A stretch of DNA of 33,587 nt from assembly GCA_003157015.1 (NCBI GenBank), contig PMIJ01000078.1, positions 13,710 through 47,296 on the forward strand, read 5' to 3'. Position numbers and translations under genes: made by a program. Below, one piece after another: positions 3,533 through 33,587 of this stretch. Numbering within the stretch: position 1 is the stretch's first letter; each line of letters begins with the position of its first letter. The notes under the pieces are model-generated. The model worked only from the letters and a program-made list of their open reading frames with translations, was not told the origin of the DNA and made no database searches. Source of the stretch: Bacteroidales bacterium. GTDB lineage: Bacteria; Bacteroidota; Bacteroidia; Bacteroidales; VadinHA17.

Positions 3533-3693
3533 ACATGTTTTGTTTTAAGGATTTCAGAATAGAAACAGATTTTAAAGAAATACCGTATAAAGATATTCAT
3601 TTAGCTTCAATGGTAATTAAGGTTCAGCACCTTAGATCTAGTAGAATCAATTGCATTTTCTCAGCGATATTCTGTACAAACTCAGTATCTCTC

Positions 3694-3770
3694 TCCCGCT
3701 TCGCGGGATAAGTTGTGCTAGTTCTTAATTTTTCATTACACAGAGCTTCACAGAGGGTTGACAGAGAACT
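3694..3770. repeat. Hairpin plus a copy of the ACACAGAG dispersed repeat
   Basis: The 285-base gap between the DUF1295 gene and the GH106-like gene contains TCCCGC-TTC-GCGGGA, a tight 6-bp hairpin at 3694-3708. Next to it, at 3720-3745 on the minus strand, is a copy of the repeat core (CTCTGTGTAA, then an A-rich stretch, then AAGAACT), followed by further CACAGAG and GACAGAG words to about 3768. The same core occurs at 24476-24501 and 33547-33571. A weaker hairpin, TAAGGT/ACCTTA, sits at 3618-3634. No gene is seen in the gap. Confidence 0.6.
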
Positions 3771-3817
3771 ACTAAGATTTAAGCTCGATTAGGTGAAGGA
3801 AGGTGCAAAAAAGAAGG

Positions 3818-10985: not shown

Positions 10986-11030
10986 AACCACAAAGTACTA
11001 ATCGTTTGAACGCCCCCTGCCGCTTTGTGT
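10986..11030. repeat. Intergenic CACAAAG/CTTTGTG inverted words
   Basis: AACCACAAAGTAC at 10986-10998 faces CTTTGTGT at 11023-11030, with the C-rich stretch CGCCCCCTGC between them and CTTCCCCCTGAAGG just after. The words resemble the CACAGAG repeats elsewhere in the window and the GTACACAAAG at 17308-17317 (reverse complement at 26501-26510). It probably belongs to the same kind of dispersed intergenic element. Otherwise 10871-11150 shows no gene or clear regulatory site. Confidence 0.4.
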
Positions 11031-17280: not shown

Positions 17281-17380
17281 TTGCCGGCAGGCAGAGAAGG
17301 CGTAGAGTACACAAAGTTAAGATCATGTAGTCACCGCATTGCGCTCTTCACAAAAAACCTTTGCATTCTATGTGATTATG
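17281..17380. repeat. Repeat-like intergenic words inside the 5' extension of the RluA-like frame
   Basis: The stretch contains GGCAGAGAAGGCGTAGAGTACACAAAG-type words, including GTACACAAAG at 17308-17317, whose reverse complement CTTTGTGTAC occurs at 26501-26510. It also has TGCGCTCTTCACAAAAAACC and TTTGCATTCTATGTG. Such text resembles the dispersed intergenic elements elsewhere in the window and not a conserved protein N-terminus. The open frame passing through it starts with TTG at 17227 and is probably open by chance. Confidence 0.4.
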
Positions 17381-24440: not shown

Positions 24441-24559
24441 GATGCTCTGTGACTCTCTGTGTCTTCTCCGTGGCTCTCTGTGTAACAAAAAAATAAGAAC
24501 TTACACAGAGTGACACTGAGAACCACAGAGTTACAGAGGAGCATAGAGTTTCACAGAGT
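24441..24559. repeat. Large palindromic ACACAGAG repeat element
   Basis: This nearly fills the gap between the GNAT stop and the Nudix start. The left arm is built of CTCTGTG, CTCTCTGTG and CTCCGTGG words, the right arm of ACACAGAG, ACCACAGAG and TTCACAGAG words. The centre is a perfect CTCTGTGTAA (24476-24485) and TTACACAGAG (24501-24510), with an A-rich 15-base loop. The arms can fold into one long imperfect hairpin. The core (24476-24501) recurs at 33547-33571 and 3720-3745 in the opposite orientation, which marks a dispersed family. Confidence 0.75.
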
Positions 24560-24567
24560 ATTGTATT

Positions 24568-25065
24568 TCAAAAATTTATCTCATCAAAAATCATGGAACT
24601 TCTCCTTTCAAGCAGTATAGTATCCCTCCATTTTCCGTCGAGCTGAGCAATTCTTTCTCTTTTTCCGATTATCCTGAATCCATATTTTGTATGCAGTTTT
24701 AATGTAGCTTCATTCTCAGGAAAAACACTCGAAACGAGAGTCCAGATTCCGTTAAGCTCAGAAGATATTATTATCTGATCCATCAGTTGAGAACCTGTTT
24801 TCTTTCCCCTGAACCGGCTTGCAACATATATGCTTACCTCTGCCACTCCACGGTAAACTTCTCTTGAAGAGAAAGGTGTCAATGCTGCCCAGCCCGTAAC
24901 GATACCATTTTCAACAGAAACAAATCTGGAATGTGGAAGATGCTTCATATCCCAATCATGCCAGGAAGGAACGACTGTTTCAAATGTTGCATTCCTTGTT
25001 TCAAGACCCATCCTGTATATTTCAAGAACACTTTCGCTGTCACCCTGAAGCATTTCTCTTACCAT
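24568..25065 (-). CDS. GNAT-family N-acetyltransferase (phosphinothricin acetyltransferase-like)
   Basis: The 165-residue protein has the layout of the Pat/MnaT branch of GNAT enzymes: VLEIYRMGLETRNATFETVV and PSWHDWD near the start, GWAALTPFSSREVYRGVAE in the middle, VSIYVASRFRGKKTGSQLM as the acetyl-CoA pyrophosphate loop (R-x-x-G-x-G/A form, here RGKKTG), and FPENEATLKLHTKYGFRIIG near the end. It transfers acetyl from acetyl-CoA to an amino group, often of an amino acid analogue such as phosphinothricin or methionine sulfone. The natural substrate is unknown. A repeat element begins 9 bases after its stop. A second inverted repeat lies upstream. Confidence 0.92.
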   Translation of the reverse strand: MVREMLQGDSESVLEIYRMGLETRNATFETVVPSWHDWDMKHLPHSRFVSVENGIVTGWAALTPFSSREVYRGVAEVSIYVASRFRGKKTGSQLMDQIIISSELNGIWTLVSSVFPENEATLKLHTKYGFRIIGKRERIAQLDGKWRDTILLERRSSMIFDEINF

Positions 25066-25120
25066 TTTCTTAAATTTACTCCTAAATCTTTACTGGTGGT
25101 ATTTTTCATAATTTATATTT

Positions 25121-25227
25121 AACCACGGAGTTACACGGCTTAATAATCTATCATATCGGAATTCAATTATTTTGACAAAATAAATACTGTGAAACTCTGT
25201 GATTACTCAGTGTCACTCCGTGGTTAA
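25121..25227. repeat. Inverted repeat with CCACGGAGT(T/G)ACAC arms
   Basis: AACCACGGAGTTACAC (25121-25136) pairs with GTGTCACTCCGTGGTT (25210-25225) with one mismatch. Between the arms are about 73 bases that include AAACTCTGTGATT, another CTCTGTG word. The element occupies the gap between the VOC stop (25235) and the GNAT start (25065). It shares CCACGGAG and CTCTGTG words with the other elements in the window and may be the same family with a longer loop. Confidence 0.65.
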
Positions 25228-26500: not shown

Positions 26501-26578
26501 CTTTGTGTACTTTGCGCTTTCTTTGAATGCTTTGTAGTTATTTGAACTTATTAATAAATACTTCTGTTTAGAAGTACT
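26501..26578. repeat. CTTTGTGTAC words and a hairpin after the TrpF-like gene
   Basis: CTTTGTGTACTTTGCG begins at 26501 and TGCTTTGTAG follows near 26528. GTACACAAAG at 17308-17317 is the exact reverse complement of the first ten bases. At 26557-26578 a hairpin with 9-base arms and one mismatch (AATACTTCT/AGAAGTACT, loop GTTT) lies 31 bases after the TrpF-like stop. The minus strand after it is only moderately T-rich, so termination is possible but weakly supported. No gene is visible in this 227-base gap. Confidence 0.4.
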
Positions 26579-33395: not shown

Positions 33396-33517
33396 AAGTT
33401 TTTTTTTAATAGATATTGACATAAAGATAATTGACTTGTGTTAACCAGGTATTCTATTGCCATATCTATGACCTGAAAATGGTATGTGAACCCCATTAAA
33501 TTATTGTAAGAACATAT

Positions 33518-33573
33518 CTCTGTGATTCTCTGTCCTACTCCGTGTTAGTTCTTCTTTTTTGTTACACAGAGTT
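33518..33573. repeat. Copy of the palindromic ACACAGAG repeat at the window end
   Basis: On the minus strand it reads CTCTGTGTAACAAAAAAG, then AAGAACTAACACGGAGT, then GACAGAGAATCACAGAG. It matches the element at 24474-24535 over nearly its whole length with a few substitutions, in the opposite orientation. It forms a hairpin with an A/T-rich loop upstream of the NTF2-like gene. The core is at 33547-33571. Confidence 0.7.
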
Positions 33574-33587
33574 ATTTCGTTTAAAGT

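Follow-up and report, generated by a model that had tools for sequence, protein, structure and literature searches.

Intergenic palindromes with heptamer-array arms in a Bacteroidales genome and their association with GxxExxY genes

Palindromic copies in the window and across the genome

The stretch of DNA studied here (the window) is 33,587 nucleotides long and belongs to a genome of 5,205,832 bases in 238 contigs (G000). It contains three copies of a palindromic repeat, all located between protein-coding open reading frames (ORFs). A first-pass annotation of the window had reported these three sites, and all are present, at 24476-24501 on the plus strand and at 3720-3745 and 33547-33571 on the minus strand. 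The core at each is CTCTGTGTAA-N-AAGAACT. A gene and a palindrome of a second type lie next to the complete copy:

24441..24559, plus strand: complete short palindromic copy with its words read; core at 24476-24501
24445, 24455, 24466, 24476, plus strand: left words of this copy
24504, 24514, 24524, plus strand: right words of this copy, degenerate beyond
3720..3771, minus strand: second copy (L011); core at 3720-3745, words at 3739 and 3749
33518..33575, minus strand: third copy (L013), one arm truncated by the contig end, 16 nt beyond the core
24568..25065, minus strand: GNAT acetyltransferase gene, between the palindromes 24441..24559 and 25120..25227
25120..25227, no strand assigned: second palindrome type, TAACCACGGAG... 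to ...CTCCGTGGTTA, with words in the opposite facing

The complete copy folds strongly as DNA (24441-24559, z -4.6, none of 200 shuffles as good). In the copy at 3720..3771 a G+C-rich mini-hairpin, at about 3691-3717, interrupts one arm. For 3680-3775 the z is -1.4, with 18 of 200 shuffles as good; the shorter stretch 3718-3772 spans one arm only. The contig-end-truncated stretch 33505-33575 gives -1.3. The earlier proposal that the two larger copies each form a long hairpin therefore holds for 24441-24559 and fails for the other copy. G+C-rich hairpins (for example, TCCCGC..GCGGGA) lie inside heptamer arms at window 3691-3717 and at L001, L025, L034, L281, and L285; they are a nested mini-element found in several copies.

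The annotation had also suggested a related subfamily of CTTTGTGTAC-type words at 10986-11030, 17308-17317, and 26501-26510, which is unsupported as worded. At the first of these positions AACCACAAAG is accompanied by CCCCCTG blocks, and the site resembles a different kind of palindrome; position 17308 has one word alone, and 26501-26516 is a two-word remnant at most. A CCCCCTG/CAGGGGG-like palindrome type is seen at window 10986-11030 and at L267, L275, L277, and L280, with some copies ending in CACAAAG words. It sits at a site that relatives fill with the CTCTGTG/CACAGAG repeat.

Across the 5.2 Mb of the genome, the core in the form CTCTGTGTAA-N2-12-AAGAACT has 40 occurrences, against about 0.007 expected in uniform random sequence and none for the reversed control, an excess that the annotation had named as a check. 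The core is found in 19 of 40 genomes of the genus, with reversed controls at zero in all 40. Its counts are 74 in G018, 40 in G000, 22 in G005, 14 in G019, 13 in G027, 12 in G035, and seven or fewer in each of 13 further genomes; the remaining 21 have none.

We read 30 of the 40 G000 copies in detail. A whole copy is about 100 bp long and runs from up to four CTCTGTG words through TAAC or TAAT, an AT-rich loop, AAGAACT, and two nucleotides to up to four CACAGAG words. In the left arm the words stand about 3, 4, and 3 nt apart, and the innermost runs into TAAC or TAAT. The words in the arms repeat roughly every 10 bp, about one helical turn. The loop varies in length, and part of an arm is gone in some copies. 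All 30 copies fall outside ORFs of 80 amino acids (aa) or more. Neighbor pairs are convergent at 12 of 29 copies, tandem at 16, and divergent at one; the tandem neighbors (6 ++ versus 10 --) show no clear strand preference.

The six copies of G024 (L281-L286) mostly have common extra flanks such as GAAAAAGTC / GGCTGTTGAAAAAGT, which we take to be similar to insertion sequence (IS) or MITE ends, and these copies have likely spread recently by another vehicle. At L287 (G004:C14) two near-identical copies stand 1.5 kb apart, likely a recent duplication.

The GxxExxY gene between the same words

We found a single GxxExxY gene (PF13366/TIGR04256) in G000, at L031 1492-1863 on contig C235. Its protein scores 154 bits against the TIGR04256 profile, for which the curated cut-off is 35, placing it in the family. 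AAGAACT-GA-CACAGAG x4 precedes the gene, which starts 18 nt beyond its final word; directly after the stop comes CTCTGTG, shortly before the contig end. A complete short copy is also present, 1 kb upstream of the gene. The same words bracket GxxExxY in G003, G018, and G023, and in G010 with AAAAACT; the arms of other relatives' genes use ATCCGTG, CTTTGTG, CTTTGCG, TTTCCCGCTGATC, and more. The order of the halves differs between the two forms: short copies read left words, loop, right words, and the gene-bearing form reads right words, ORF, left words. Short copies are therefore not simple internal deletions; it is as if two ends had been joined.

Within the genus, a close GxxExxY (at least 74% to L031) occurs in six of 36 genomes searched. 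The core is present in all six and in 11 of the 30 genomes in which no close GxxExxY was found (p 0.006), so that 11 of the 17 core-bearing genomes searched, which are drafts, gave no close GxxExxY; this comparison draws on most but not all GxxExxY matches (fragments in G019 and G022 are left aside), and G355-G358 fall outside the genome-wide GxxExxY search. Seven more distant GxxExxY genes in relatives (L038, L042, L047, L053, L054, L059, and L060) lack heptamer arrays, yet when scored for inverted words of other kinds, five of the seven beat 95% of shuffles.

The GxxExxY protein is about 123 aa long. E27, D67, E77, K79, Q91, and Y95 are invariant in 16 aligned relatives, and this set includes the motif residues D67, E77xK79, and Q91xxxY95, which presumably correspond to the D, ExK, and QxxxY motifs of RecB/Cas4-type PD-(D/E)XK nucleases. 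A predicted structure (pLDDT 94.7) finds its best structural match in 4ic1, which we take to be a Cas4 nuclease (Z 10.0 over 100 residues, rmsd 4.2). Further chains with a nuclease fold, which include Hjc and Cas4, follow at Z about 7, and 4r5q matches at Z 6.9. Cas4 profiles match weakly, and searching the Protein Data Bank by sequence gave no significant hit (E 0.68 for 4ic1). By its modeled fold and its motif residues, GxxExxY is predicted to be a RecB/Cas4-type PD-(D/E)XK nuclease. Cas4 carries an iron-sulfur cluster; no cysteine is among the invariant alignment columns of the roughly 123-aa GxxExxY. The portion of the literature covered by our search mentions the GxxExxY name only in passing and describes no function.

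Words flank GxxExxY genes well beyond the genus. The named loci are the best 80 of 580 confirmed GxxExxY loci, identified with LGPGLLESA-type patterns that favor that subfamily, and were scored for words of the type CRCNRAG/CTYNGYG. At least two words lie within 150 nt on one side or more at 73 of these best 80 of 580 loci; among 209 control ORFs taken from these loci, 35 have them (p 6e-33). Among the same best 80 of 580, the nearest words are arranged as right word, ORF, left word at 46 loci, in reverse at six, and otherwise at 28 (including four without words), with commonest periods of 10 and 9 nt. Counting words within 150 nt at the best 80 of 580, the median gap is 14.5 nt before the start, at 66 loci, and 9.5 nt after the stop, at 62 loci. 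The inverted-flank score, computed for 70 of these best 80 of 580 after ten with a short flank or short ORF were dropped, exceeds the controls' 95th percentile at 40 loci and falls below it at 30.

A tree of 123 proteins includes 75 of the named loci (five of the best 80 of 580 were left out), and these 75 span 11 phyla, Methanobacteriota included; at least three words flank 71 of them. Arm type, scored on the 100 tree rows with enough words (23 of 123 were left out), changes 23 times on the tree against at least 37 times in 300 shuffles. Arm type follows the GxxExxY protein tree. In a survey of 296 genomes of the host's phylum, GxxExxY is present in 152 (E 0.001 or better). It occurs in 24 of the 25 genomes with a strict three-word array against 128 of the 271 others (p 6e-7), the one array genome without it being G282. 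The 128 GxxExxY genomes without a strict array perhaps use other word types and spacings.

Carriage of GxxExxY by viruses or plasmids was considered and rejected: a set of 50,697 phage records has no copy of the gene, and eight of 72,556 plasmid records have it. Narrow peptide patterns gave one confirmed locus on viral contigs. Outside prokaryotes, one report notes a GxxExxY protein annotated in a virus of a haptophyte alga (PMC12085832).

Orthologous sites and conservation of the words

Empty sites in relatives had been proposed as a further check on mobility, and filled and empty orthologous sites are both present. At site 24441, NUDIX and glyoxalase genes abut in G017, G020, and G008. A palindrome and a GNAT gene stand between them in G000, G006, and G019, with a second palindrome also in G000 and G019; G005 has a different palindrome there, without GNAT. 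In G006 at this site (L172) and in G023 (L271), the AAGAACT-bearing loop has the opposite orientation to its counterparts at the same site in other species; the palindrome seems to flip.

A second locus lies between an outer-membrane-protein (OMP) gene and the next gene. It was readable in 32 genomes, with 33 of 37 other matching genomes fetched (G004, G006, G028, and G356 left out) and two further regions interrupted by contig ends. GxxExxY with arms occupies the locus in 11 of the 32 and a broken GxxExxY in two (G021 and G024). ORF-less palindromes occur in two (G001 and G355), partial arms in four (G008, G026, G030, and G034), and a gene for the 23S rRNA intervening-sequence protein (IVP, PF05635) in two (G019 by profile, G029 by likeness); 11 have no array. 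G355 and G011 are 91% identical beside an ORF-less palindrome of about 122 bp, of a related type, that G011 lacks. A target-site duplication had been suggested as a mark of insertion, and none that is convincing appears in this one close pair, in which the alignments overlap by 5 nt only. We withdrew the idea of one single element carrying either GxxExxY or IVP at this locus, since in G019 and G029 IVP comes with inverted words of its own (GAACAAAC/GTTTGTTC type) next to leftover heptamers.

On the other side of the OMP-locus gene, compared in 16 genomes, the CTCTGTG/CACAGAG repeat is present in G000, G003, G010, G018, and G019, and in degenerate form with an inverted loop in G023. Different hairpins or arrays occur in G001, G008, G013, G026, and G032. 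G009, G017, G021, G029, and G015 have no repeat (in G015 the upstream gene differs).

The words are conserved and the spacers are not. Across G000 copies, words are 88% identical and spacers 39%, with 29-32% expected from base composition; the word figure is somewhat inflated, as the parser chooses the best gap with at most two mismatches (three at orthologous sites). On the left it accepted 77 of 90 outer words and on the right 98 of 120. For the five same-way copies beyond the OMP-locus gene, words are 91%, spacers 38%, and outer flanks 35% identical, a comparison that leaves out the loop-inverted copies (G006 and G023) and tolerates three mismatches. At site 24441 one pair gives 84% for words, 62% for spacers, and 30% for flanks. 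Two explanations suit this: selection acts on the words site by site, or the site is a hot spot that other copies refill. Each requires something that reads the words. Gene conversion is unlikely to lie behind the word identity because the spacers are not homogenized.

Pairing between the arms is not maintained. Of 65 changed arm positions, one is Watson-Crick compensated, 24 are wobble, and 40 are broken; an earlier parse gave one compensated, 54 one-sided, and two otherwise. The compensatory changes for which the annotation had called are therefore all but absent, leaving its structured-RNA option unsupported, and an RNA hairpin under pairing constraint is ruled out. Its alternative of a protein-binding site is favored by the retention of words and not spacers.

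Interpretation and related elements

We propose that a chromosomal palindromic element has a gene-bearing form, with GxxExxY between the arms, and that the three window sites, which have the same arms and no ORF, are its non-autonomous copies. We give this reading a probability of about 0.55. The GxxExxY nuclease, which would bind or move the repeats, is the most likely reader of the phased words on DNA, although a partner protein could serve instead. The protein may cut or nick at the palindrome, perhaps extruded as a cruciform, and repair would then spread and keep the copies. Such dependence on GxxExxY would resemble the supposed dependence of REP elements on the RAYT protein. Several observations stand against the proposal. 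The halves of short copies run opposite to those of the gene-bearing form; 11 of 17 core-bearing genus genomes searched gave no close GxxExxY; most GxxExxY genomes of the phylum lack the strict array, and G282 has the array without the gene; a part of the named loci has neither clean word order or stays under the inverted-flank threshold; and the one close pair showed no clear target duplication. In addition, old copies are under constraint, which is unexpected for purely selfish dead copies, and the IS/MITE-like flanks in G024 indicate that another vehicle can move copies. The annotation's small non-autonomous mobile element survives in so far as the repeats are dispersed, probably non-autonomous, and present at filled and empty sites; the REP-type partner it foresaw does not.

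REP/REPIN elements are dispersed intergenic palindromes, with a single chromosomal gene for the RAYT nuclease, a Y1/HUH enzyme, flanked by the same palindromes. The repeats studied here are alike in being dispersed and intergenic, with one chromosomal nuclease-type gene, rare on phages and plasmids, between the same palindromes. The linked GxxExxY gene differs from RAYT in its predicted PD-(D/E)XK fold. The only Y1_Tnp (PF01797) match in G000 is partial, and its 1.7-kb locus is without words; identity with REP/RAYT is therefore ruled out, with no Y1 (HUH) transposase linked to the repeats. In one description, a REP is a palindrome of 20-40 bp with a GTAG or CGTC tag (PMC3733652). Arms of heptamer arrays, a total of about 100 bp, and a core with TAAC and AAGAACT place the present repeats outside that definition. 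They resemble the MITEs of DDE insertion sequences as short ORF-less palindromes with presence and absence at orthologous sites, and differ in that no defined outer ends or target duplication were found for the family.

An alternative that we consider unlikely, yet the strongest of those weighed, is that the copies are host protein-binding arrays (BIME-like), at which a host DNA-binding protein acts at gene ends and whose words GxxExxY elements use or hitch-hike on. In its favor are word-only conservation at an orthologous site, the absence of the 30 copies read from ORFs of 80 aa or more and their mostly convergent or tandem neighbors, and the presence of copies where no close GxxExxY was found. 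It offers no account of words at medians of 9.5 and 14.5 nt, where present, from the GxxExxY stop and start over 11 phyla, nor of arm type following the GxxExxY tree.

A transcribed RNA hairpin at mRNA 3' ends, acting in processing, stability, or termination, is highly improbable. The strong folding of one complete copy and the location between gene ends would suit it, but it conflicts with the broken and uncompensated pairing, with the lack of a clear strand preference among tandem neighbors, and with the inversion of the asymmetric loop at orthologous sites in G006 and G023; in addition, Rfam has no match in the window at the gathering threshold, and no rRNA. We regard as equally improbable a passive MITE-like repeat moved by an unrelated transposase, with GxxExxY merely resident. 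The common, IS-like flanks in G024 and the related palindrome present in G355 and absent in G011 speak for it; yet the 30 G000 copies read show no such common flanks and have near-random spacers (0.39 identity), and the link to GxxExxY is seen repeatedly, in many genomes and phyla.

The preferred reading, a palindromic element with a GxxExxY-bearing form, suggests a widespread and seemingly undescribed repeat-and-nuclease element; the literature searched, which under-covers subscription journals and bioRxiv, yielded no description of the association. If true, repeat and nuclease would stand beside REP/RAYT as a second, unrelated partnership of this kind. Tying GxxExxY to a recognizable DNA target makes its function directly testable.

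IVP genes may show a parallel design. The G000 genome has 14 matches to PF05635; of the 12 genes that remain without two fragmentary matches, nine outscore 95% of 40 shuffles for inverted flanks, and the repeated words differ. At IVP loci of other genomes, 12 of 30 pass a threshold of 17, the 95th percentile of GxxExxY-locus controls (this test has seven control ORFs of its own). These results suggest a common design for the elements that carry GxxExxY and those that carry IVP. In a 2016 paper, the inverted ends of the Coxiella 23S element form a 28-bp stem, tandem GACAGAT heptamers precede the S23p gene, and the function and origin of 23S rRNA intervening sequences are called unclear (PMC4990558). 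Such intervening sequences, with their S23p/IVP four-helix-bundle ORF, share with the present elements a small ORF between inverted repeats and direct heptamers just upstream. The protein and the words differ, and the present repeats are intergenic, not ribosomal, whereas the intervening sequences are defined by a place in a 23S rRNA helix and by RNase III removal. Tentatively, there may be a cross-phylum class of elements with helix-phased inverted word arrays and at least two unrelated resident genes (GxxExxY and IVP), in which the resident protein would read the words on DNA, the window palindromes would be non-autonomous members, and the 23S intervening sequences would be the ribosomal-gene branch. 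The parallel, if true, would offer a possible origin for the latter. The words of the G000 IVP loci (L223-L234) are inverted and gene-specific, for example AAGTCGGAAGTCCGAAG, CGTCGTGCGTCGTGAG, and CTTTTGTCTTTT.
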